Origin: a virus
Length of the DNA: 64,000 bases
Reading direction: 5' to 3' (one strand)
Virus record (IMG/VR): IMGVR_UViG_3300047552_000229
Span: 1-64,000 of that record
Numbering within the stretch: position 1 is the stretch's first letter; the number at the start of each line of letters is the position of its first letter. The notes under the pieces were generated by a model. The model saw nothing but the letters and a program-made list of their open reading frames with translations, made no database searches and had not been told where the DNA came from. Both the position numbers and the translations under genes were made by a program. Below, one piece after another: positions 8,840 through 54,216 of the stretch.

Positions 8840-9097
8840 TCAGATCGCTCCGGATTTGATGAGACGATCAAGAACATCTTGCTTGGCCGCTTCGACCATG
8901 ACAGGATGCATGTCTGCGTGAACAGCAAGCGTTGCCTGTACGTTCGTAGCAACCAAATGAGTTGCTGCAATGAATCCCATCTTGGGAGTTTCAGGCTCAA
9001 CTGCTTTCACAGATTCGCCCTTGATTGCAGCTACTCTTTCGGCATACGTAGCGTATGTGATTTCAGGGGTAGTCACTTCTTTGGTGTTAGCCTTCAT
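8840..9097 (-). CDS. hypothetical protein, 85 aa, paralogue of the 12941-13180 product
   Basis: AAGGAGAATATC precedes the ATG. The C-terminal 40 residues (HLVATNVQATLAVHADMHPV then a helix ending RLIKSGAI) align with the C-terminus of the 12941-13180 product (HVVATHVQANFNVHKFYHQE, ending RLARKNLIEV). The shared core is HxVATxVQAxxxVH followed by an MV-A motif. The N-terminal 45 residues differ. Function unknown; conservation of the core shows that both copies are maintained. Confidence 0.7.
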   Translation of the reverse strand: MKANTKEVTTPEITYATYAERVAAIKGESVKAVEPETPKMGFIAATHLVATNVQATLAVHADMHPVMVEAAKQDVLDRLIKSGAI

Positions 9098-9138: not shown

Positions 9139-9888
9139 TTAAGCTGCAAGTGCAGCGACATCCGGGTTGATGTTGACGTATCCGCCTGCCATGAGTCGTT
9201 CCTTACTGAACTCAATGCTCTTGGCACATGCTGCTTTGACGTATCCGTCGAGGTCCCAACCGAGGTTAGCCACGGTTGTTTCCAATTCCTGAGCCAGATC
9301 AGCCAAGTCCAACTGGCGACACTGCTCATAGTCCAACTTCCAGTTGGGGATAAGCGCTACGCGATCACGCAATGCTTGCTGTGCATCATCTGCTGCCTTT
9401 TGCGCATTTACTTCTTTCGCGGATTCCAACTGAGTATCGGTCATATGCCCGTTGATCTTCAGCACATTCATCTGTGTCAATGCATGGTCATTGGATGACG
9501 TAGCACGGAAGTTAACCGCGTCGACCAACACAGTACCAACAGTGCTGATGTGTGGTCGGCCAGACACATTCGATGCACCGGCGAGCCATGCGTGGGGCTT
9601 TGATTTGCGGCCCTGATCATCAGCTTCAGTGATATCGCTGAGATCGCGCAGTGCGCTAGTGCATAAATTGACTGCGTGAACAGCAACCTCCGGGTTGATG
9701 TCCTTGATTTCAGGCTCATCACCAACGCTGAGCAAAGCCTTCAGTTCATCGTCAAGTTCCTTAACGGGACGCAACTTAGCACTGAGTGCACGGTTGAGAT
9801 CAAGACCCGCGTCAAAAGCTACTTGACGCAAGACTGTGATGGCTACTTCCTCGCCATATACGCGAGATACTGCATCTTTCAAGTTCAT
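9139..9888 (-). CDS. hypothetical protein, 249 aa, paralogue of the 10666-11427 product
   Basis: GAAGGAGATTTACC precedes the ATG. The protein is helical and shares several blocks with the 10666-11427 product: TEADDQGRKSKPHAWLAG against TEADAKGRQHRPFAWLAE, the following TxG with a HISTV/KLRTI step, and the C-termini RLMAGGYVNINPDVAALAA against RLMKGEYVNIDPEVAAMAR. It has no transmembrane segment and no catalytic motif that I can name. It is a medium-sized protein unique to this block, encoded directly before the 85-aa paralogue at 8840-9097. Confidence 0.75.
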   Translation of the reverse strand: MNLKDAVSRVYGEEVAITVLRQVAFDAGLDLNRALSAKLRPVKELDDELKALLSVGDEPEIKDINPEVAVHAVNLCTSALRDLSDITEADDQGRKSKPHAWLAGASNVSGRPHISTVGTVLVDAVNFRATSSNDHALTQMNVLKINGHMTDTQLESAKEVNAQKAADDAQQALRDRVALIPNWKLDYEQCRQLDLADLAQELETTVANLGWDLDGYVKAACAKSIEFSKERLMAGGYVNINPDVAALAA

Positions 9889-10665: not shown

Positions 10666-11427
10666 TCAACGAGCCATAGCAGCCACTTCAGGGTCGATGT
10701 TCACATACTCGCCTTTCATCAGGCGCTGTACGCTCATATCGATCGAAGAAGCAGCAGCTTCTTTGACAAGCGAATCACTGATGTTGCACGCTTTCGCTGC
10801 ACGATCAATGGTTTCGTATAAGTCATCCTTGGTCAACAGGCTCAGTGCTTTGAGTTCTGCCTTCCAGTCAGCCACATACGCAAGCTTGTCCTTGGCTTCG
10901 TCCTTCTGCTTTTGGAGTTCAGCAACTTTGCGAGCTTCCAAGATGTTCGCAGATTCTGCTTTCTTTATAGCGCCAACCCACGAGAGCGTTTCAAGCTGTT
11001 GCTTGATGTGCTCAAAGGATTGAGATGCGCGATATTCAGCAATATCGTCAAACAACTCAGGAATTGTGCGAAGCTTCTGTTTACCAGTAGTCTTGGACGG
11101 TTCAGCAAGCCATGCAAACGGACGGTGCTGTCTGCCTTTGGCATCAGCCTCGGTGTAACGCACCCACTCAACCAAAGCTACCAAAGTAGCGTTGTACAGA
11201 GTTGATGCATCCGAGATAGTCGCGGGCTTAGCAAGCTGCTCACCATCAAAGCCGAGCATATCTTGCAGAGCCATGTCCATAGGTGCGATAACCACACCAC
11301 GAATTTCACGACTAACCGCATCGTTGAGAGCATTGCCAGCCCTGAACAGCAACGACAGCAACACAGTGGTTGCGACATTGCCATTACCAGAACCAATGGC
11401 ACCCAACAGCGACGTAAGTTTTTTCAT
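10666..11427 (-). CDS. hypothetical protein, 253 aa, paralogue of the 9139-9888 product
   Basis: Start at 11427 after TAGGAGAACAAAG; a longer frame exists but has no ribosome site. The N-terminus MKKLTSLLGAIGSGNGNVAT is followed by a weakly hydrophobic stretch and then by the blocks shared with the 9139-9888 product (TEADxxGRxxxPxAWLA and RLMxGxYVNIxPxVAAxA). The middle contains a charged coiled coil (EARKVAELQKQKDEAKDKLA) absent from the other copy. Function unknown. A stem-loop follows its stop codon. Confidence 0.75.
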   Translation of the reverse strand: MKKLTSLLGAIGSGNGNVATTVLLSLLFRAGNALNDAVSREIRGVVIAPMDMALQDMLGFDGEQLAKPATISDASTLYNATLVALVEWVRYTEADAKGRQHRPFAWLAEPSKTTGKQKLRTIPELFDDIAEYRASQSFEHIKQQLETLSWVGAIKKAESANILEARKVAELQKQKDEAKDKLAYVADWKAELKALSLLTKDDLYETIDRAAKACNISDSLVKEAAASSIDMSVQRLMKGEYVNIDPEVAAMAR

Positions 11428-11528
11428 CTTTGTTCTCCTAGATAGATGAATTGTTGCTCTTACCCGAGCAGGGTTAGTGTACGTAGTGCACACTCCAAAG
11501 CCCTGCAAACAGGGCGATGGGCTATGTA
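11428..11528 (-). other. leader spacer with stacked hairpins
   Basis: About 100 nt between two genes, without coding potential. It holds the hairpin GCCCTG-CAAA-CAGGGC (11500-11515) and AGTGT/ACACT arms (11476-11494). On the minus strand it ends in the TAGGAGAA ribosome site of the 253-aa gene. The same arrangement precedes several genes of this block. Confidence 0.45.
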
Positions 11529-12940: not shown

Positions 12941-13180
12941 TTAAACCTCGATGAGGTTCTTGCGTGCAAGGCGTTGGAACACCTGTTCTTCAGCGGTTGC
13001 TACCATCTCTTGATGGTAGAACTTGTGAACATTGAAGTTCGCTTGCACGTGCGTAGCTACCACGTGTGATGCATCCACTACGCTATTGGCTTGTTCGCCA
13101 ACATAGTTGAGGACTGTTACCAATACACTGTTAGTGGATTGGACGTGGCCGCGTGCGGCTTTGGCTTCTTTGAATGTCAT
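12941..13180 (-). CDS. hypothetical protein, 79 aa, paralogue of the 8840-9097 product
   Basis: Start at 13180 after TAGGAGAAAACAA. The first gene of the leftward block begins MTFKEAKAARGHVQSTNSVL, and its C-terminal 40 residues match those of the 85-aa protein at 8840-9097 (VATxVQAxxxVH, then a helix). Being first after the divergent promoter region and directly followed by a terminator, it should be made in large amounts early. Function unknown. Confidence 0.7.
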   Translation of the reverse strand: MTFKEAKAARGHVQSTNSVLVTVLNYVGEQANSVVDASHVVATHVQANFNVHKFYHQEMVATAEEQVFQRLARKNLIEV

Positions 13181-13319
13181 TTGTTTTCTCCTAGAAAAGA
13201 GGTTGAGAGACTCCTTATTCGGGTTGACAATCCCGAATCCGAAGTGGGGTGGGTCAGAGGCGACCCACACCCAGAGAGTCTAACCACGCCCAACGTACAA
13301 AAATTTTTATAAAAATTTA

Positions 13320-13368: not shown

Positions 13369-13890
13369 ATGCAAAAACAGTACACAAGACGCAAGCCTGT
13401 CACGTCTACCGCAAGGGAGCCTAGTTCCATCGTGCAAATGACCAAACCATTGAAGCCAGAGCAAGAACAGATCACGCATATGTTCGTGGACCAGAACCTG
13501 AGCAAGCATCAGATAGCGGCGAAGCTCGACATGAAGCCCGCGAGTGTATCGAGGGTGCTGAATCAAGAGAATGTGAGCTATGAGGTAGCGAAAAGGCGCG
13601 AAGATTTGCGCATCAAGATGAAGATTACGAAGGAGGATGTCGCAAACATCCTGCTTGACGGGGTAGAAATGGCGCGTGTTATGGCCGAACCTAGTACAAT
13701 GATACAAGGCGGCAGGGAACTGGGTAAGATGCTAGGTTACTACGAGCCTGAAGTGGTGAAACATGAGGTTAATGTACAGAGCGCTGACTTCCAGACGCAG
13801 TTGAAGACCCTGACTGATCAAGAACTGTACGCTTTGTTGGAAGAACACACCGTCGAAGGTGAGTTTAAGGAGATACAAGATGGCAGTTAA
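13369..13890 (+). CDS. terminase small subunit
   Basis: The first gene of the late operon, 173 aa. Residues 25-75 hold an HTH (LKPEQEQITHMFVDQNLSKH, then IAAKLDMKPASVSRVLNQE), the DNA-recognition part of small terminases. Residues 100-135 (EDVANILLDGVEMARVMAEP to GRELGKMLGYYEPE) are characteristic of small terminase subunits of head-full phages. It would bind the packaging site and regulate the large subunit encoded at 14488. The ribosome site is weak. The gene overlaps the next by 11 nt. Confidence 0.85.
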   Translation: MQKQYTRRKPVTSTAREPSSIVQMTKPLKPEQEQITHMFVDQNLSKHQIAAKLDMKPASVSRVLNQENVSYEVAKRREDLRIKMKITKEDVANILLDGVEMARVMAEPSTMIQGGRELGKMLGYYEPEVVKHEVNVQSADFQTQLKTLTDQELYALLEEHTVEGEFKEIQDGS

Positions 13891-14491
13891 TCTAAACAGA
13901 GAATTGTCAGCAAAAACTCCCGGCCTTCGGCACGTAGAGTTCAACATGTACAGAGGGCACGGAGCTTCTGGGTTAGAAGACCTCATGAAGACCGGTGTGG
14001 TTCAAGGAACGGAGGACTACCAAGGCAGGGCCTACTGGAGTAGAAACGCACCCCTCGCTCATTATGTAAGTCCGGACAGAAACGGATACGGCGCTGTTAT
14101 AGAACTGGAAACGAACGGAAACCCTAGGCCGTATGATAGGCGTATGCCAACCAAGAACGGCTATCCGGCTACTCACGGAACTCCAGAGAGTGCGCACATC
14201 AATAGATTCACTGACCCCATTCGAGTGTATACCCCTGATGCTCAGGGGAACTTCGCGCAGGTGTATGACAACGCAACCCCTTGGAAACGCGGGCTAAGGA
14301 CGATTGGGTACAACGCTATTGGTAACACAGGGATGCGTGCACTTGCTATGGGTACAGAAGCACTGGCGAATCCCGTACTTGGACTAGCAGGACCTGTGAT
14401 GGATATGTACGATATGGCCCATAACGACCCGGTTGCTAGGAATTACAACGCAGGTAACCCTGCATATAGTCGTACCATCGGACATAAATGA
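13880..14491 (+). CDS. ADP-ribosyltransferase-like protein between terminase genes
   Basis: Start at 13880 after AAGGAGATACAAG. The first 80 of 203 residues follow the layout of ART/PARP-type folds: an R/H strand (NMYRGHG, R25), a helix ending in TG (LEDLMKTGVVQG), a Y/S motif with helix (GRAYWSRNAPLAHYV, residues 49-63) and a strand IELE (E75, E77). The order matches the H/R-Y/S-E pattern of ADP-ribosyltransferases. The rest is glycine/alanine-rich and helical. Such an enzyme could modify host proteins, or be packaged and injected. The fold call is from motif spacing only, and an inactive derivative is possible. Confidence 0.5.
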   Translation: MAVNLNRELSAKTPGLRHVEFNMYRGHGASGLEDLMKTGVVQGTEDYQGRAYWSRNAPLAHYVSPDRNGYGAVIELETNGNPRPYDRRMPTKNGYPATHGTPESAHINRFTDPIRVYTPDAQGNFAQVYDNATPWKRGLRTIGYNAIGNTGMRALAMGTEALANPVLGLAGPVMDMYDMAHNDPVARNYNAGNPAYSRTIGHK

Positions 14492-16060: not shown

Positions 16061-16903
16061 ATGAGGCTATACACCCCACAACAGCAGTCGGATATTGCCA
16101 GTGCTCAGCAGCAGACAGAAGCGGCGATCTCCCCCTCCTTCATCGGTACTGCATGGGATACGGTCACAGCCGCAGACGCTTCTGTAGGGCGAGGGCTTTC
16201 CTCTTTGGGGAAGGCTACAGTCGGTGGATTCAACAGCGCGGTGCAGAGCACTGGCATTCCGAAGCTCTTTTCTCTGTCTAGAAACGACGTTAAGAACCGC
16301 AACGGAGTAGCTACCGCTCCTATGACGCCCGCTGCTCCGGAGCAGAAGCCGTTTCAGTGGTTGGCCGGTATGCAGCAGAATCCGGCACAAATGGCCGGAG
16401 CGGATACTGCCCTTCCCACACCGAACTTGGCAGGGGCTGTAGGCGCAGACCCCATGAATACCACCCCTCCACCTCTCCCCGGTGCGCTGTCGGCGCAACT
16501 TTCAGCGAACACAAGTCGCAACTGGGAGCAGAGTCAGTTGCCTGCCCTACAGGGGCATGGGAAGATGATAACTGGGTCGGACGGACAGCCTATGTGGCAG
16601 CGCGGTAGCGCGGACGTTGCGAACCCTAACATGACAATCGGCCCAAGTCGGAAGATGTCCAATGATGAAGTTATTGCGCACATGGACCAGTACAATAAGG
16701 CTCATGCTAGCCCGCAACCGCAAGAAAGCCTTATCAAGTTCAACAATGTAGACGCGAACTTGGCTAATCTAGGCCCAAAGGCTTCGACCACGAAGAACTT
16801 CCTGCCTAACGGCGGCGGGCTGCGACAGGATTACGGCTCTTTACAACCCCAGATGAATAGACAAGACGTTTCAGCTTCGCTGATTACAATGCCCAGAGGC
16901 TAA
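16061..16903 (+). CDS. hypothetical virion-region protein, 280 aa
   Basis: Start at 16061 after GGGAGCGTGAC, directly following the terminase stop. The protein is low in complexity: glutamine-rich at the N-terminus (MRLYTPQQQSDIASAQQQTE), then alanine/proline/asparagine-rich, with no membrane segment. Its position between terminase and portal is often used for minor head or ejection proteins with disordered parts. Function unknown. Confidence 0.7.
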   Translation: MRLYTPQQQSDIASAQQQTEAAISPSFIGTAWDTVTAADASVGRGLSSLGKATVGGFNSAVQSTGIPKLFSLSRNDVKNRNGVATAPMTPAAPEQKPFQWLAGMQQNPAQMAGADTALPTPNLAGAVGADPMNTTPPPLPGALSAQLSANTSRNWEQSQLPALQGHGKMITGSDGQPMWQRGSADVANPNMTIGPSRKMSNDEVIAHMDQYNKAHASPQPQESLIKFNNVDANLANLGPKASTTKNFLPNGGGLRQDYGSLQPQMNRQDVSASLITMPRG

Positions 16904-44380: not shown

Positions 44381-46120
44381 ATGGCTATTTCCCCGTTGTC
44401 CGATCTTGCGTTTGATCCACGTAGCAACGCGCATGTGGGTGCCGCCCAGAGAGAAGCCGAACTGAATAATATTCTTAAGTCGAGCATCAACCCCAACCCC
44501 GCAGAGGCGGAGATTCTCGCGCAAGCAAAGCCGAGCGGCGGATACTGGGATAGCCCCGGCCCCCAATCAGCCACACGTGCCACTACTGCTAGTCAGGGTA
44601 GAGCGCCCTTGCGTAGTATTACTGCTCGCGCAGGGGATGCAGCTAAAGACTATCTCGCCCCCAAGGGTAGGGTGGGTAAGGCTGCACTTGGCGCTGCCAA
44701 GTGGGGCGGCAAGGGTCTGGCTAAGGTAATCCCCGGCGTAGGTGTGGCCTACGAAGGCACCGCAGCTTTGGGCGACCTGATGGATGGACAGTTCCTGAAC
44801 AAGCTCGACAAGAGCGGCAACATCGACAGGGGTTTCTTGCACCATGCAGCAGGCGCGGTAGCCAACGCATTCGGACCAGTAGGTACTGCCGTGGATATGG
44901 CATCCTCTACTGATGCAGCGGCTAAGCACTTGCTCAACGCAGAAGACCGTGCGGCCTTCGACGCGCAGGAAGCGGCCCGCGTGTCTGCTCAGTCTGCTCC
45001 GGGCGTATCCCCGGAAGAAGAGGCTGACATGCAGCAACGTCCGCAGGGTAACGGCGCACAGCCTGCGCAAGGGGTTGCTCCTGCACCCCGTACGCAGTAC
45101 GACGTTATCCAAGAGATGCTTGATGACGCGATGCTGTACAAGGGTGCTACCGACACGGAGCCTGCATGGCGTAAAGAACTAGTGAAGCAGGCAACTGACC
45201 CCAACGAGAAGTACACCCCTTACGCAATCCCGGACGAGAACGCCGGGATTCGTGAGAACATGCGCGAACGGTACATGAACTGGGCCAACTCTCGCCATCC
45301 TCGTAGCATCTTGGTAGGTGAGAAGCTGTCGCAAGGTCTGAAGGAACTGACCGATGCACGGAACCAACAGCACAACATCATGGCAGGGGATGTGCAGAAC
45401 ATCCGTGGGCAGCACGGCTATGATAAACAGCGTCTGCTTGAGCTTCATAACCAAGAGCAGGATGCTGATATCAGCCGCGAGCAGAACCGTATGCAGGGTC
45501 AGGCAAACCTCATCGGGCGTGCGTCTACTCTTGCGGGCGTCATGCGCGATACGCAGAAGGCGCTCTGGGATCGTAAGAGCAGCAACCGTGACCGCGCCAT
45601 GAAGCTTTTCGAAGCTCTGGGTGGCGAGGATAAGTCCGTGGGCGCGAAGATGCTCGCAGAGTTCGACCTTAAGAACTCTCAATTGAAGGACGAGAACGGT
45701 AACGTGATCGACGCCGCAGACTTGCCGCCGGGACAGTATGAAGCACTGATATCTCAGCACATCGATGCTATGAAGAACGTAGAAGGTCAGCGTAACGCGC
45801 TTCCCTTCTGGAGTTCTACGCCTGTGTCCCCTCTGGATGCAGACATCAGAAAAACTACTGCGTATCCGGGGTTCCTCCCGTCTATCGGAGGGGGCATGAG
45901 TCCATACACTGCCGCCAAGACTTCTCTCAAGGGATTGGTGGGCGGTAATACAGATATGGCTGTAGGTCGGGGTGGAGTATTGTTCCCGATAGGAGAAGCA
46001 TCGGATGTATCTCGTCAGCGTTTGGCAGAAGAAGCTGCATTGGCTCTGAAATCAGGTAAACTATCTGCTGAAGAAGCAAGAGCAATGGAACTTCAACTTA
46101 ACCAAGCGCTAGGAAGATAA
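44381..46120 (+). CDS. internal virion protein, 579 aa
   Basis: AAGGAGTAAGAA precedes the ATG. Helical, with an alanine/glycine-rich amphipathic stretch at residues 90-150 (GGKGLAKVIPGVGVAYEGTA) that could insert in membranes, and a long charged helical part in the second half (ENMRERYMNWANSRHP, QHGYDKQRLLELHNQEQDAD). Directly followed (ATGA) by the giant ejection protein. It is probably one of the DNA-ejection proteins that build the conduit across the cell envelope. Confidence 0.7.
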   Translation: MAISPLSDLAFDPRSNAHVGAAQREAELNNILKSSINPNPAEAEILAQAKPSGGYWDSPGPQSATRATTASQGRAPLRSITARAGDAAKDYLAPKGRVGKAALGAAKWGGKGLAKVIPGVGVAYEGTAALGDLMDGQFLNKLDKSGNIDRGFLHHAAGAVANAFGPVGTAVDMASSTDAAAKHLLNAEDRAAFDAQEAARVSAQSAPGVSPEEEADMQQRPQGNGAQPAQGVAPAPRTQYDVIQEMLDDAMLYKGATDTEPAWRKELVKQATDPNEKYTPYAIPDENAGIRENMRERYMNWANSRHPRSILVGEKLSQGLKELTDARNQQHNIMAGDVQNIRGQHGYDKQRLLELHNQEQDADISREQNRMQGQANLIGRASTLAGVMRDTQKALWDRKSSNRDRAMKLFEALGGEDKSVGAKMLAEFDLKNSQLKDENGNVIDAADLPPGQYEALISQHIDAMKNVEGQRNALPFWSSTPVSPLDADIRKTTAYPGFLPSIGGGMSPYTAAKTSLKGLVGGNTDMAVGRGGVLFPIGEASDVSRQRLAEEAALALKSGKLSAEEARAMELQLNQALGR

Positions 46121-49100
46121 TGAGCCTGCTTTCCGATTTCGCCCCCGGACCGTCGTTACTACGAAGCTTCACCCCCGAAACCGACACATCCGTAGCTGCT
46201 GACTTAGTAAAACAGACCGTAAACCCCCATGAGAATTATTTCTCGCAAGGGCTACGGTCTGCCTTTATGGGTCAAGGTGCAGGCGATCTGTTCCAAGAAG
46301 CTCTTGATGCCGAAAGCAAAGGTGATCGCGTCGGTGCGATGATCCTTAAGCATCGGGCGGAACAACTTCAGCAAGAAGCTAACCTCGAAAGAGGTGCGGT
46401 TCCTACTTGGGAACAAGCAAGCAACCTGACACAAGGCCTTCGCCCACTCACCCAGTACGCTATGTCAGGTATGGGTCAGGGTGCGGGTTCTATGCTTCCT
46501 TCTATCGCAGCCGCTGCGATTACTCCATTCGGGCCTCTAGCAAAGACCGTAGCAGCAGCAATCCCTGCCTATGGCATGAATCGCGGCGAGCAGGTAGGCA
46601 AGCAATACGCAGACCCTGAGCAAGCTATACTGCCTGTTGACGTACGTCAGAGCAACGCTTCCAAGTATGCAGCCACGGCCTCTGTACCTGACGCAATCGT
46701 ACCGGGAGCTATCGGTGCGCGTATGTTCGGCAAGAAGGTAGGCGGAGCACTAGACTCTGCCGCAGGTACTATGGGTTGGGAAGGTGCTACAGAAGCTATC
46801 CAGAACCGCATGAGCGACTACGCTCAGAAGCAACTGAACCCTGAGCATCAGTACGATAGCGCAGAGGATATGGAAAACTTCCGCCAAGGTGTGCTTGGTG
46901 GTGCCTTCGGTCACGCGCTTACCCTGCCCGGTCAGGCAATAGGTGCCGCAGGGGAGGCTTCCCTTACAGCAGGCAAGGACCTGTTCGGCAAAATTCAGGA
47001 GAGCAACGCTGTCAAATCTCTGGCTGACTCCTACGCCAAGAACGGCATCGTAGGTGTAGCCACCGACGCACTTGGTAGCGCCGCTGATAACATTGGCGTT
47101 TTTGCAGCCAATGTGCGGGCGATGCACAACGTGGCTAAGGTCTACGGATGGACTCCGATCATCAAGGATCAGATCGATGAGTTGTCCGGCCAGAACAAGT
47201 TTATCAATAGACTGGTCGCATCCTTCGGTACGTTAGGGGCTACTACCAACAAGGTGTTGTTTGGCAAGGATGGGTCAGCACAGACGCTGATGAGCAACCT
47301 TGCCAAGACTCCTGAGCGTATGCAAGGTCTTATCGCCGGTATGAATACCGCGCAGAAAGACGCGGCTGCTATTGAAGCAGCGCAATACGTACTTGGTAAG
47401 TTCCCTCCGCACTCCGACGCGAACAAGGCCGCACAGGCTGTGATGGAGCAGAAGAATCCGAGCAAGGAAGACTTGCAGGTAGTGCTTGCTGCTCATGCCA
47501 TCTACAAGACGGGCGTCGAAGACCTCGACTCTAGCAAGGCGTTCGATGATGCAGCCAACGCTGCTGAACTCCGCGCTAAAGACCCCGTCACTGCTCGCGC
47601 TGAGCTTGCTAACCGTATGCGTGACGCGATTAACAGCGCCATACACATCAACGATTCTATAGAAGGCAGCAAAGACGTTTCGGACAAGCTGATCGACCTC
47701 AGCAACATTCAAGACGATCAAGAACTGACCGGGCAGTATATGACTGCCAAAGAACTGGTACGAGGTGTAGAAGGAAGGGCCAAGGCAGGCTCTGAACTGG
47801 AAGCACTTAAAGGGCACATCAACAAGATCAACGAAGCTCGTAAGAACGCAGGCATAACGGAAGCGTTCTCCAAACTGACTGGCGCTAACATCAAAGGTGG
47901 GTTGGAAGGTGACGACCTTGCCGTTGCAGTGTACGAAGCTCTGTCCAAGAACGCGGATAAGACCGGCCTGTCCGAAGAGCAAATCAACGATGCGGTCAAG
48001 ACCATCGTAGGATACTACAACGGTAACAACGCGGCTTTGTTGGCTAAGGCAGGGAATGAGAAGGGGGGTGTGCTCTCTTCTATGTCTGACTTCGAGCGCA
48101 GTGTTAACTATCTGACTGGTGGCAAAAAGAAATACACCTCTGAGATTTACAAAGCTGTGTTTAAGAAGGTAGCGGGGGGTAATCCTACAGCCGTTCGCTT
48201 GTCCGACGCTGTTTTGAACGTACTTGGAGAGCGTGGGAATATAGAAGGACAAACAAAGAAGGGCGATACGGAACATCAGAAGGTGCTTACTGACGCAATA
48301 GAAGCAACCCGATTGATGTATGCTCCGCAGCATACCTCTGCCTTCGAATCGCCTATGCAGACGGCTGTTAAGAAACGCGAACAGCAACGTGTGTACGAGG
48401 AAATGGTCCAGAAGATATCGAACCATACAGGCACTAAGCCTGACATCGTTCGCACAGCCCTCTTGCTGCGGGCCAATCCGATGCACCACCAAGCAAAGAT
48501 CAAAGCCGGTCTGCTCAACCCCGCTGCTAACGTAGAAGGTAACTCTACTGATTCGTCTGTAACCGTGGCGATGATGAAGGACGTTCTACCACGAGAGGCA
48601 GATGACGAGGGCTACGGTGGGCAAGACGGAACTTTGAACTTGGTAGGTCAGGACGAAGCAGGTCTGTCTTATGATGCAGAAGCTACTCCTTACGAGTCCA
48701 AGCCGTTGTCGCCAGTAAACACCGAACAGTTTCGTAATCCGGGCGGTGAGTTTATCGCTGAGTTGAAGAAACTGCGCGCCATGTTGGAAGGCTCGCACAA
48801 CATCTCTACCGTTACGATGAACGACTGGGCGTCTTCCAAGCTGCCTTGGGGCGAGCGCGGAAATATCCATAGCCGCAACCGTATGCTGCAAGATCACATG
48901 GACAACATCCTAGCGGATGACGCCAAGCGCCTCTCCGAGTTGACCACTCGCTACGGTGACTTGAAAGTATCCATCGCTACCCTACAGCTTAAGATGCAGG
49001 AAGCGTGGGAGATGTATGACGAGGCCAACGCCGAGAACAAGATTCTTGATTCCGACGTATGGAAAGACTACTTCTCCGCTCGTGAGCGCCATCGTACATA

Positions 49101-52100
49101 CGTCAAGAGCGTGACTGAACAGACGGCTCGTGAGCTTCTTGAGTCGAGCGACACCGGTGACCTTCCCCTGATCGCAGAAGAAATCTACTGGATGAATGCG
49201 CGCAAGGGTACTGCGAGCAAGTCGTATAACACTCCATCTAGGTTCTTTGAGACATACGACCAGTACCGAGTTATCGTAGCTACGCCCAAGACAGCAGGGC
49301 TTGAGCAACTGGACCAGAGCGACTTCGAGAAAGTCAGCACGGCGTACATGCCGAACAACACTGATCTGCTGAATGAATGGCTGATGTCGGACGATGATAA
49401 CGCCCCGATGCCGGAGAAAGAATCGTCCGATATACCAAAGGGTAGCATCCTAGTTGGTACAGGAGAGGATGCATTTACTCTGGATATCGCCGCGCTGTTG
49501 GCTAAGCAGTTCCGAGGCAGCAACGGCGTCACCAAAGAAGACGTACTGCGCGAACTGACAGGGCTGTACTTCTCGCTGACTGCAACGGACAGTGATGGCA
49601 ATAAGATTTACGGCGAACTGCCAATCGAAACGGAGCGTATCCTTCTGGATGGGCGTGACCTTCGTCTGGCTGTATCCCAGAACCCGTCCGTAGCAAACAA
49701 GAAAGCTCTAGCTGCGTTTGTCAAAGAGCAGAGCGACTTCCCGCTACTCCGTTCTGAGGACGGTAAGGTCAACATCACCCTTGGTGACTTCCTCAAGGAA
49801 GAAACAAAGGATGGTTTCGCTGCTATCGACTTCAAGAATGCACCGGACATTGTCCTCAAGGACCCGTACGCTGTAGCCATCAAGCGCGCCAAGCAAGCTC
49901 GTGTTAATGCAGAGTTGGCGCGTGACCAAGCGGCGGTTGATAAAGCTAATCGTGACCTTGCTTATCTGGAGAAAGACAGAGCAGGCGAGATCACCACCGC
50001 CAAGGAAATGAAGCAAGGTATTCTGCGCATGACAGGTGCGGGTGGTGAAGTGTTCATTCATATGCCTAACCTCATAGCTGCATCTCTGGCTAACAGAGGA
50101 TTCAATGGCAATATGAGCCAGTTGTCCAAGGCCACCCAGATGGGCTTGTTCATGAAGGCTATGGAGCACCTCACTGGCAAGCGCAAGTACAAGCTTGTGG
50201 GTATGCAGATGGAGTCCGTGCCGGGGCTACAGAACAAGCTACGCAACCTTGTGGTATCGGAAGGCGCGGCAGTACGGGGCGGTATCGTTAACAAGGGGCA
50301 ATATGAGTCGTCCGTAACTTACGGCGATCTGGTGGATGCGTTCGCACTTAGCGGAAAGAAGCGTATATCGGATTGGGCATCGACTGACACCGACTATGTT
50401 GCTAATAAGATTGGCCGCTTTCTTTATTGGGCTAGCAAGTTAGACAAGATTTCGGAAGATCGTGTCGAGTTCAACACGCCTGTTACTGGTGACGAGCGTG
50501 CTAGTGAGTTAGAACGGCAGCTTACTGCGCTGAACGAGAAGATAGCTGACGAGCAGAGCAAGTCCCACACGATGCGCTTTGCACCCAAGGAAGAGATGCT
50601 CGTTTGGAAGAACGGGCTAAAGGGCCTGCTTACCGAGAAGCAGCGTCTTGAAACCCGCATCGCTCTGAACAACGGTACCCAGAAGGGTGTATCGCAGCAG
50701 ACTCGTGCCGAGTTGCAGCAGTTCTATAAGACCAACGTGGCGTATCTGCTCAGTCAAGAACTGGAGCGCGCTCTGGACAATGGTACGGAAGCAGATGTAA
50801 TGCATCTCTTGGTCAACGGTCCTGATGCACAGAAGGTAAAGGCGCTGTTCCAGTTACGGCTGTTGGACGAAGGACAGGGCGGTGAGTTCACGCAGACCCA
50901 AGCCTCGCAAGTCATAGGGGACATCGACACCACCGGCCCTGAGTGGCCTGCTGCTGTAGCAGAACTCCTGCGTGATGAAGTGGAAGCGCTTAAAGGTCTG
51001 TATGGCGTAAGTATGTCCGATGTGGAAGTCAGTCGTATGACTGAAATGAAGCAACGCCAAGCCCACGAGGCGGGTAACAGTAAAGTCCCGTTGGAAAAGC
51101 AATACGAGACAACCCCTTTGAAGGACGAAGGCGACGCACTTGCAGACGAAGGTACAACCTCTCCCGACGTGTATGGCTTTACTGATGGTCGGCCACAACA
51201 AAGTCCTACTCTGGAAGGAGATGCCGCGATCCGCGAAACCTTCCGGAACCAACTCACTGCGTTTGACCGTTCACTGGTTCGCCCCAAAGATTCAGAAGAA
51301 GGGTTCGGTGCCGGTGCAACACTAGAAGGAATCATTGCAAAAGACCCGGAGATGATGACGGACCTACAATCTGTTCCGGGCAAGCTCGAAGCACACATCA
51401 TGCTTATAGATCGACAGATCGCACGCAATGATCAGCCGGGCGTGGTGGCTAACGGAGGTACTTTGGGGCAGGTAGTGGCTATGCTCAAGCGAGCTAAGTC
51501 TATTCTTGAGCCTTTGGCTAAACCGTTCTCTGTAGCCAACCCTGCGTACAACGAACTGGTCGCTCCAACCGAAGGGGATGTCGGTAACGCACAGGAGAAG
51601 GCTACTCCTAGCGCTGACTTTAGCCACGAGTACAACCCTGATGCATACCAAGCATCAACGGGTACTGGCATGGGTGCGATAGACACGAAGTTAGACCCTA
51701 ACTTCCCGCCTAACAACGGGCACCCGCACGACGAACTGTTCGCCAACAGGGCCAAACGCGAGGCCGATCCTACGTACCGCTACTCCAAGATGAACGTCCT
51801 GCCGCCAGAAACTGTGGCGCATCTTCAAGGCAGTGCTGACGAACTGTTAGCCCAGTACAAGAAGATGATGAAGAATGTAGGCAGTGCCTATGTCAACACA
51901 TCAGGCCCTGTGCTAGACGAAAACGGCGATATGCAGCCGGAGAAGACTAGCGAATATACAGTGGCGATCAACAGCGCCTTGGCTCTACCTCAGATGTGGT
52001 CGTTCATGCACCACGGCGCTATCCATGCTCTGCTCAACGCTCTGCAACGTGACGGCGATGATCCTGCTAATAAGAAGGTGGCAGAAAAGATCATGCGTGT

Positions 52101-54216
52101 ATCTAACACCAAGCACATGCAGGCGAAGGTGAACGCAATCCTCAAGGCTCTTGGGCAAGAGGAAGAGATCGCACGCATTGAAGGCAAGCCTGACGAATAC
52201 GCTGCCTATATGTTCCAGTTCTCGCATCTGCATGGAGCAGATGGTAAGCCGATGCTTAGCATCGGTGAGGACACCAAGTCTGCATTCGAGATGGTGAAGC
52301 GCTTCCTCGCTTGGATCATTCGTGCGTCTACTGAAGCGCAGCAAGTGACTAAGTTCATAGATGCATGGGAACAAGGCAAGGTGGATATTGGGAGTCCGTA
52401 TGCAGCCAAGGAAGGTCTTGGTATGACCTACACCGATACTGCTCTGGACAACCTGAGCGAAACCCTGAAGCCGTTGATGGAAGTAGCCCACAAGTTGATG
52501 GATTCTAGCGTCACCCGTATGCGTAGGATGAACCATGAAACGGTTAATCAGATTGCTGACTGGTACTCTGGCTCTCACGGTAAGGTAGGCTTCGAAGCCC
52601 GCCACAAGATCGAAGCTTTCAAACTGGCGAACGATCTGAGCAAAACTATGGGTGGTATTGACTCCAAGGCTACTAGGGACGCGCTTGCCGAACTGCTGTC
52701 TGGTAGGGAAGTCACTTCCGATGCAGGCAAGAAGCTACAGAAGTGGATGAAGGACAACGGGATGTATACGCAAGACCGTCCTGAAGTCATCTGGAACATG
52801 GACGTTATCAACGACAACCCGGAAGCGTTCCTGTATGACGTTAAGGAGAGGGGTTGGGCTAAGCCACGTACTCTTACCGATGCTGACAGAGAGACGGCGA
52901 ATACCATAGTCAATGCGTTGATCAACGCTAATATGACCTATGCCGGTGATGTGAAGACGATGCATGACATCAACTCCATCGAAGGTATGTATGGGATCGA
53001 AGTTCGAGATATTGCCCCCGGCCACTGGGGTGATCTGTCCAAGTACATGGAGCACGATCCGACCATGTACTTCCCGCACTTGCTGATGCGCCATACGAAA
53101 TCCATCGCGCATGAGAAGGTGTTCGGTAAGGACCTCGGCGCACTGAAAGAGGCAATCGCCAAGATCGCACGCGATCCTAAGCTGTCTTCTGCACAGAAGG
53201 CTGAGGTCGGTGACTACATCTCTATGATGGAAGGACGCCTTGGTGCTTCAATGACCCCGGCCATGCGCACCGCGCAAAACTGGGCACTAACAGCTACCAA
53301 CATAGTGACCCTCCCTCTGGCTATGTTTAGTCAGTTAGTGGAACCCATGACAGTAGCTGCACGCAGCGGTAATTTGGGCGATGCTTTCAGCGCTATGGGC
53401 ACTGGCCTAGCAGGTATCCCCGCCGGATTGTTCGGTACTCCTATCGAAGACCACGAACATCAACTGGCCGAAGAGATCGGGGCTATTGAGCGTGACTCTG
53501 CTATCGACAATATGCAGTTCCTACAGAACGGCGTGCATATGTCCGGTATGCCGCACAAGATCAGCAAGATGTTCTTCAAGTACAACGGCATGGAAGGATG
53601 GCATCGTAGTCAACACGCCGCTGCTGCCGGCGCTGCCGAGCGCTTCATCATTGCCCACAAGTCAGGTGAGGGTGAGAGCGGTAGGTTCTTGGCAGACGTA
53701 GGTCTTACGCCCGAAGATATCAAGATCGACGAGCACGGGCATCTGGCGCGTGATGAGAATGGTAAGGTGCCAGAGAAGATCGCTAATGCGATTCACCTGT
53801 TCATGCATCAGGCGCTTGCGATCCCCTCGAAGAGCAACACTGCTATCTGGATGAACGACCCTCGCTTTGCTATCTTGGCACACATGAAGCGCTTCACCTT
53901 TGCGTTCCACGAGGACGTGTTGCGCAGGGCGTTTGATGAGTACAAGAACCACAAGAACGGCGTACCATTGTCGTTGCTGATGGGTGCAATTCCTGTAGCT
54001 CTAGCCGCAGGCGGTATGAAACATCTGCTTAAAGGGGTTGACGTAGGTTGGGATCAAGCTATGATGGGAGCAGTACAGAACTCGTCACTGATGGGCAAGT
54101 GGGAATTTATATACAGGGCGATGCAAGACGTAGGTTTCGGACATCCGGCAGGGTTTTCGATGCTAGGACCCGTTATCGGAACGGCTTCGGATGTAGCTAG
54201 CGGAAGAGGAATTTAA
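46120..54216 (+). CDS. giant internal virion / DNA-ejection protein, 2698 aa
   Basis: The largest gene of the window. The N-terminus has hydrophobic Gly/Ala-rich helices (MGQGAGSMLPSIAAAAITPF). A mainly helical, charged body follows, divided into several domains. The C-terminal 450 residues are conserved among large polyvalent phage proteins (THxx...NTAIWMNDPRFAILAHMKRF, then the hydrophobic LSLLMGAIPVALAAGGMKHL). It should be carried in the head and injected to form a trans-envelope tunnel, as T7 gp16 and P22 gp16/gp20 are. No lysozyme or protease active site was recognised; MWSFMHHGAIHALL near residue 1962 might be a decayed metallopeptidase helix. Confidence 0.8.
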   Translation: MSLLSDFAPGPSLLRSFTPETDTSVAADLVKQTVNPHENYFSQGLRSAFMGQGAGDLFQEALDAESKGDRVGAMILKHRAEQLQQEANLERGAVPTWEQASNLTQGLRPLTQYAMSGMGQGAGSMLPSIAAAAITPFGPLAKTVAAAIPAYGMNRGEQVGKQYADPEQAILPVDVRQSNASKYAATASVPDAIVPGAIGARMFGKKVGGALDSAAGTMGWEGATEAIQNRMSDYAQKQLNPEHQYDSAEDMENFRQGVLGGAFGHALTLPGQAIGAAGEASLTAGKDLFGKIQESNAVKSLADSYAKNGIVGVATDALGSAADNIGVFAANVRAMHNVAKVYGWTPIIKDQIDELSGQNKFINRLVASFGTLGATTNKVLFGKDGSAQTLMSNLAKTPERMQGLIAGMNTAQKDAAAIEAAQYVLGKFPPHSDANKAAQAVMEQKNPSKEDLQVVLAAHAIYKTGVEDLDSSKAFDDAANAAELRAKDPVTARAELANRMRDAINSAIHINDSIEGSKDVSDKLIDLSNIQDDQELTGQYMTAKELVRGVEGRAKAGSELEALKGHINKINEARKNAGITEAFSKLTGANIKGGLEGDDLAVAVYEALSKNADKTGLSEEQINDAVKTIVGYYNGNNAALLAKAGNEKGGVLSSMSDFERSVNYLTGGKKKYTSEIYKAVFKKVAGGNPTAVRLSDAVLNVLGERGNIEGQTKKGDTEHQKVLTDAIEATRLMYAPQHTSAFESPMQTAVKKREQQRVYEEMVQKISNHTGTKPDIVRTALLLRANPMHHQAKIKAGLLNPAANVEGNSTDSSVTVAMMKDVLPREADDEGYGGQDGTLNLVGQDEAGLSYDAEATPYESKPLSPVNTEQFRNPGGEFIAELKKLRAMLEGSHNISTVTMNDWASSKLPWGERGNIHSRNRMLQDHMDNILADDAKRLSELTTRYGDLKVSIATLQLKMQEAWEMYDEANAENKILDSDVWKDYFSARERHRTYVKSVTEQTARELLESSDTGDLPLIAEEIYWMNARKGTASKSYNTPSRFFETYDQYRVIVATPKTAGLEQLDQSDFEKVSTAYMPNNTDLLNEWLMSDDDNAPMPEKESSDIPKGSILVGTGEDAFTLDIAALLAKQFRGSNGVTKEDVLRELTGLYFSLTATDSDGNKIYGELPIETERILLDGRDLRLAVSQNPSVANKKALAAFVKEQSDFPLLRSEDGKVNITLGDFLKEETKDGFAAIDFKNAPDIVLKDPYAVAIKRAKQARVNAELARDQAAVDKANRDLAYLEKDRAGEITTAKEMKQGILRMTGAGGEVFIHMPNLIAASLANRGFNGNMSQLSKATQMGLFMKAMEHLTGKRKYKLVGMQMESVPGLQNKLRNLVVSEGAAVRGGIVNKGQYESSVTYGDLVDAFALSGKKRISDWASTDTDYVANKIGRFLYWASKLDKISEDRVEFNTPVTGDERASELERQLTALNEKIADEQSKSHTMRFAPKEEMLVWKNGLKGLLTEKQRLETRIALNNGTQKGVSQQTRAELQQFYKTNVAYLLSQELERALDNGTEADVMHLLVNGPDAQKVKALFQLRLLDEGQGGEFTQTQASQVIGDIDTTGPEWPAAVAELLRDEVEALKGLYGVSMSDVEVSRMTEMKQRQAHEAGNSKVPLEKQYETTPLKDEGDALADEGTTSPDVYGFTDGRPQQSPTLEGDAAIRETFRNQLTAFDRSLVRPKDSEEGFGAGATLEGIIAKDPEMMTDLQSVPGKLEAHIMLIDRQIARNDQPGVVANGGTLGQVVAMLKRAKSILEPLAKPFSVANPAYNELVAPTEGDVGNAQEKATPSADFSHEYNPDAYQASTGTGMGAIDTKLDPNFPPNNGHPHDELFANRAKREADPTYRYSKMNVLPPETVAHLQGSADELLAQYKKMMKNVGSAYVNTSGPVLDENGDMQPEKTSEYTVAINSALALPQMWSFMHHGAIHALLNALQRDGDDPANKKVAEKIMRVSNTKHMQAKVNAILKALGQEEEIARIEGKPDEYAAYMFQFSHLHGADGKPMLSIGEDTKSAFEMVKRFLAWIIRASTEAQQVTKFIDAWEQGKVDIGSPYAAKEGLGMTYTDTALDNLSETLKPLMEVAHKLMDSSVTRMRRMNHETVNQIADWYSGSHGKVGFEARHKIEAFKLANDLSKTMGGIDSKATRDALAELLSGREVTSDAGKKLQKWMKDNGMYTQDRPEVIWNMDVINDNPEAFLYDVKERGWAKPRTLTDADRETANTIVNALINANMTYAGDVKTMHDINSIEGMYGIEVRDIAPGHWGDLSKYMEHDPTMYFPHLLMRHTKSIAHEKVFGKDLGALKEAIAKIARDPKLSSAQKAEVGDYISMMEGRLGASMTPAMRTAQNWALTATNIVTLPLAMFSQLVEPMTVAARSGNLGDAFSAMGTGLAGIPAGLFGTPIEDHEHQLAEEIGAIERDSAIDNMQFLQNGVHMSGMPHKISKMFFKYNGMEGWHRSQHAAAAGAAERFIIAHKSGEGESGRFLADVGLTPEDIKIDEHGHLARDENGKVPEKIANAIHLFMHQALAIPSKSNTAIWMNDPRFAILAHMKRFTFAFHEDVLRRAFDEYKNHKNGVPLSLLMGAIPVALAAGGMKHLLKGVDVGWDQAMMGAVQNSSLMGKWEFIYRAMQDVGFGHPAGFSMLGPVIGTASDVASGRGI

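Follow-up and report, generated by a model that had tools for sequence, protein, structure and literature searches.

The window, that is, the whole stretch of 64,000 nucleotides analysed here, belongs to a virus record that is a 66,629-base genome. Sequence comparison shows this virus to be distantly related to Pseudomonas phage KPP25. The closest relatives, among which the named phages are Pseudomonas phage KPP25 and phiR18, have a terL with 47-52% identity to that of this virus. An open reading frame scan shows, between the genes terS and terL and on the same strand, a frame of 203 codons plus a stop, encoding a 203-aa protein, here called P0001 (Table 1). This is a real gene. The Shine-Dalgarno sequence AAGGAG (13,867-13,872) lies 7 nt upstream of its ATG at 13,880, which overlaps the end of terS by 11 nt (terS stop at 13,888-13,890), and its own stop overlaps the ATG of terL at 14,488 by 4 nt. 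The codon score of P0001 is -0.09, compared to -0.16 and -0.21 for frames +1 and +2 and -0.04 for the reverse strand, a low value, so that codon usage tells the frames apart weakly. This score is the lowest among the 22 genes compared, and GC3 is 0.50 versus 0.54-0.71; both values are compatible with a recent acquisition, for which they are weak evidence at a length of 203 codons.

Table 1. Features of the terS-terL region and motifs of P0001 (positions in the window)
Feature	Position	Strand	Basis
terS (small terminase-position gene), 173 aa	13369..13890	+	HTH similarity; homologue precedes terL in ~40 relatives
P0001, orphan 203-aa candidate ART gene	13880..14491, incl. stop	+	ORF, SD AAGGAG, overlaps with both neighbours; no family match
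YRGHG, residues 24-28	13949..13963	+	sequence; aligned on YRG of Nina gp6
GRAYWSRNAPLAHYV, residues 49-63; S54 candidate motif Ser, then A60/Y62 helix	14024..14068	+	WS on Nina WS
VIELE, residues 73-77	14096..14110	+	Ser-to-strand spacing equals that of VIFEFK of T4 ModA
PESAHINRFTDPIRVY, residues 102-117; E103 candidate	14183..14230	+	suggested by by-eye comparison with ModA/ModB/Nina
P0001 C-terminal region, residues 133-203, lower polarity	14276..14488	+	
terL (large terminase), 523 aa	14488..16059	+	PHROG 38 E 2.6e-110; PF03237 E 2.4e-10

On the 3' side of terL follow an orphan gene and then genes for a P22-like portal, a scaffold-like protein, and a capsid protein. The orphan, at 16,061-16,903 (+) between terL and the portal gene, encodes 280 aa of low complexity without a family match, and its slot is occupied in the relatives by unrelated small ORFs. 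None of the approximately 40 relatives' loci with a recognisable TerS has an ART-like gene between terS and terL; at these loci the two genes are adjacent or have an open N-terminal extension of TerL between them, and one locus, L016, has another short ORF of 100 aa there. The absence of an ART-like gene at this place in the relatives suggests that P0001 is an accessory insertion in its own lineage. In ~19 loci of KPP25-like relatives, the N-terminal extension of TerL carries CxxC-x(n)-CxxC, which is zinc-finger-like (L008, L009, L010, L019, L024, L028-L034, L042, L044, L046, L047, and L049 among them); the TerL of the window starts without it. This extension was considered as the origin of P0001 and rejected, as the CxxC-CxxC stretches have no resemblance to it that is visible by eye. 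Elsewhere in the window, two pairs of paralogues are found in the left arm, 9,139-9,888 (-) with 10,666-11,508 (-) (alignment score 275, p about 1e-26) and 8,840-9,097 (-) with 12,941-13,270 (-) (score 84, p about 1e-7). The gene at 46,120-54,216 (+) encodes a 2698-aa protein without a Pfam match, of which residues 2293-2640 match PHROG 30152, a virion structural protein (E 3.7e-42), which suggests that this giant protein probably belongs to the virion, either as an internal or as an ejected component. A derivation of the C-terminal region of P0001 as a copy of the phage's own putative ejection proteins was unsupported (p 0.04-0.4).

The motifs from which the earlier note proposed an ADP-ribosyltransferase (ART), namely YRGHG, L..L.KTG (L32..L35.K37TG, residues 32-39), GRAYWSRNAPLAHYV, and VIELE, are each present in P0001 as it described them. 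With respect to the R-S-E type of ART, the arginine in strand 1 within YRG corresponds to Y24-R25-G26, which aligns on the YRG of Gordonia phage Nina gp6, and at the place of the S-x-S/T-x-S motif of the next core strand P0001 has a single serine, in YWS (S54), aligned on the WS of SSWSS in the same protein. Among 2028 other ORFs of 120 aa or more, the loose pattern YRG...[YFW].?[ST]...A.[YF]...strand occurs twice, in neither case convincingly. It fits T4 ModB and fits neither ModA nor Nina gp6, indicating that the pattern is rare yet not a sharp test.

Database searches place P0001 in no family. It has no match up to E=10 in Pfam, PHROG, NCBIfam, and PDB, except for a weak one to PHROG 36046 (E 0.073, for a fragment of 69 aa), a family without a match in the virus's own genome. 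The earlier note had named a profile search against ART families as a check of its proposal, and this search does not bear the proposal out: no curated ART profile of Pfam, PHROG, or NCBIfam matched at E up to 10. Homologues of the whole protein and of its ART-like half were sought among phages, plasmids, IMG/VR and GTDB contigs, 20 relative virus records, and 399 Pseudomonadota genomes, where only an identical contig or noise was obtained. The sole other contig with P0001 matches at 100% identity wherever the two were compared and consequently says nothing about selection. Two weak plasmid matches, H1 and H2, were discarded as homologues because their frames are not plausible genes, and scans of IMG/VR and GTDB with the DNA pattern for YRG-gap-YW[ST]-x5-A.Y returned the same virus or chance matches.

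Direct comparison with known ART families gave likewise negative results. A profile of ART-PolyVal (116 sequences) scored P0001 at -0.7 bits, a rank of ~280 among 1001 sequences including shuffles, and a PSSM from the first 85 ART-PolyVal positions was equalled or exceeded by 674 of 1000 shuffles of P0001; ART-PolyVal is ruled out as its family by these tests. With a profile of ModA and ModB, P0001 scored -3.3 bits, and 409 of 1000 shuffles did as well or better. Single-sequence AlphaFold models of the whole protein and of residues 14-128 reached pLDDT values of 31 and 36, respectively, which are too poor for judging the fold, and Foldseek with the low-confidence model had no match in the PDB at E<=0.001.

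The one sequence similarity in favour of an ART is to a single phage protein. A tblastn search with residues 14-120 against 50,697 phage records returned one match at E<=10, Nina gp6, with E=6, which taken alone is chance level for that database. Without composition correction, 19 of 47 aligned residues are identical (40%), and YRG falls on YRG and WS on WS. The pairwise score of 68 is not reached by any of 5000 shuffles (maximum 54), for which a Gumbel fit gives p about 2e-6, and 3e-6 on repetition. Beyond residue 68, the two proteins have no similarity. The weight of the match lies in the identity of the target and in the register, and part of this weight is the motif that prompted the idea. 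Nina gp6 has an N-terminal VG15 head-protein domain, and its C-terminal domain contains LYRG, SSWSS, and EEKEII. This C-terminal domain scores 15.4 bits with a ModA and ModB profile built without Nina, whereas the best of 1000 shuffles reaches 7.3, and its best alignment with ModB spans all three motifs. The profile score and this alignment indicate that the sequence resembling P0001 belongs to an R-S-E ART carried by a phage head protein. In the record of Nina, gp6 (L211:2936-4492) is described only as a capsid maturation protease, and the C-terminal ART domain is unannotated; a similar domain is found in no other phage record of the collection. The proposal that P0001 is an ART is therefore upheld in part: the Nina ART domain aligns with it in register, but the ART-PolyVal and ModA/ModB profiles score it no better than shuffles. 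The N-terminal half of P0001 is, on this comparison, suggestive of an ART.

The assignment of catalytic residues is a separate matter. For T4 ModA, we take the motif to be S96-A-S98, the following strand VIFEFK at 117-122, and the catalytic EQE at 163-165; VIFEFK lies 19-24 residues past the motif serine, and the catalytic ExE follows another 41 residues on. VIELE of P0001 lies 19-23 residues past S54, at the position of VIFEFK rather than of EQE, suggesting that E75 and E77 are probably not the catalytic pair. The earlier note had expected R25, S54, and E75/E77 in the cleft of an ART fold, an assignment rendered doubtful by this spacing, which equals that of the non-catalytic strand of ModA; VIELE is probably the strand after the helix and not the catalytic glutamate strand. 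In a by-eye alignment, the EQE-equivalent place, ~9-10 residues before the last strand, falls near H106 in PESAHINRFTDPIRVY. No ExE is present there in this weak, manual alignment, ESAH occupying residues 103-106, and E103 is the nearest candidate for a catalytic acid if P0001 is an ART. The sole ExE-like element of the protein, E75-L-E77, lies on the earlier strand. Without a clear ExE, ART activity is doubtful, and an inactive ART fold is, as far as the motifs allow judgement, a real possibility.

Collectively, P0001 may be a very diverged stand-alone member of the ART superfamily, or what is left of one, of the R-S-E (Alt/Mod/MuF-ART) type known from phages; we assign this reading a probability of roughly 0.45. 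That it has an ART fold at all, the inactive variant included, is about as likely as not or slightly favoured, and that it is an active ART is a tentative candidate reading, clearly short of even odds. The first competitor, a serious one although it too falls below even odds, is that P0001 has some other fold and is a small orphan, for instance a packaging accessory or a minor virion protein, in which the ART-like motif is coincidental. The lack of profile support from any library and the negative ART-PolyVal and ModA/ModB shuffle tests agree with it, as does the orphan beyond terL (16,061-16,903), which implies that fast-evolving small genes are normal here; however, the best phage match of P0001 is an ART domain that aligns in register, and the motif is rare among the 2028 other ORFs. 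Less probable, and on the whole unlikely, is an ART fold that has lost transfer together with the catalytic glutamate and serves as a binder of NAD or ADP-ribose or as a structural packaging accessory. It would account for the lack of ExE where ModA, ModB, and Nina carry EQE or EKE and for ESAHINRFTDP preceding IRVY in P0001, but the second half of the protein is too diverged for alignment, so the glutamate may still exist. That the frame is spurious and the DNA between terS and terL non-coding is highly improbable, since the low codon score, weakly separated frames, and reverse-strand value are opposed by a strong Shine-Dalgarno sequence, an overlap with each neighbour, and 203 stop-free codons on the operon strand.

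Under the preferred reading of P0001 as a diverged phage ART or relic, the gene would have been acquired into the packaging operon of a KPP25-like phage. Expression would be late, and translation would be coupled to that of terS and terL, as presumed from the observed overlaps. By analogy with T4 Alt, and from gene context only, the protein could then travel in the head, be injected, and modify host proteins by ADP-ribosylation at an early stage of the following infection. NAD would be bound by R25 and S54, E103 would be no more than the nearest candidate for the catalytic acid, and transferase activity may have been lost. The full proposal, in which P0001 is a head-loaded, stand-alone ART without the canonical ExE, from a highly diverged clade not described before, and is coupled in a podovirus to both terminase subunits, is doubtful.

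The location of the gene was regarded by the earlier note as unusual for an ART, which is contradicted by a survey across 21,191 viral proteomes in which phage ARTs are often near terminase subunit and portal genes (PMC9503650). The same survey finds ~44% of phage ARTs in a genomic context that points to head packaging, and ART genes in only ~3% of podoviruses (PMC9503650), a rarity that weighs against the ART reading. Among the protein-modifying domains found in phage polyvalent proteins, ARTs are the most common (PMC5512222). P0001, lying between terS and terL, has the position near terminase and portal genes that is seen in head-packaged phage ARTs; given the survey pattern (PMC9503650), this position is unsurprising and gives mild support to both ART and packaging. 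If the reading is true, this podovirus lineage, in which ARTs are rare (PMC9503650), gains one, and one that is coupled to both terminase genes while standing free of any head protein; phage ARTs would then also diverge past the reach of standard profiles, and ART counts would be too low. If it is false, P0001 is another fast-evolving orphan of a packaging operon.

P0001 can be compared with four known systems. ART-PolyVal/Tox-ART-HYD2 (PF18760) has a similar motif order, YHG, YFT, and NP, but a histidine in the active site where the matching residue of P0001 is arginine; its active site is H-Y-D (PMC5512222). In KPP25 and its IMG/VR relatives, terS and terL are homologous to those of the window, whereas they are adjacent without an ART-like gene and many TerL proteins are extended, so that the window differs in both respects. 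T4 ModA, ModB, and Alt have WRG or YRG, the motif serine, an A-containing helix, and a VIxE strand in the same order as P0001, and in ModA the order and spacing of YRG, S-x5-A, and the VI strand agree with P0001, the serine-to-strand spacing included. In contrast, ModA and ModB have no detectable sequence similarity with P0001, which has no ExE. ModA and ModB are early genes outside the packaging operon, and Alt is head-packaged. Nina gp6, a VG15/MuF-like capsid maturation protease, resembles P0001 from YRG through the helix behind it to the WS motif, and its gene likewise lies in a head-packaging module; its ART domain is fused to the head protein and keeps EKE, whereas P0001 stands alone between terS and terL.
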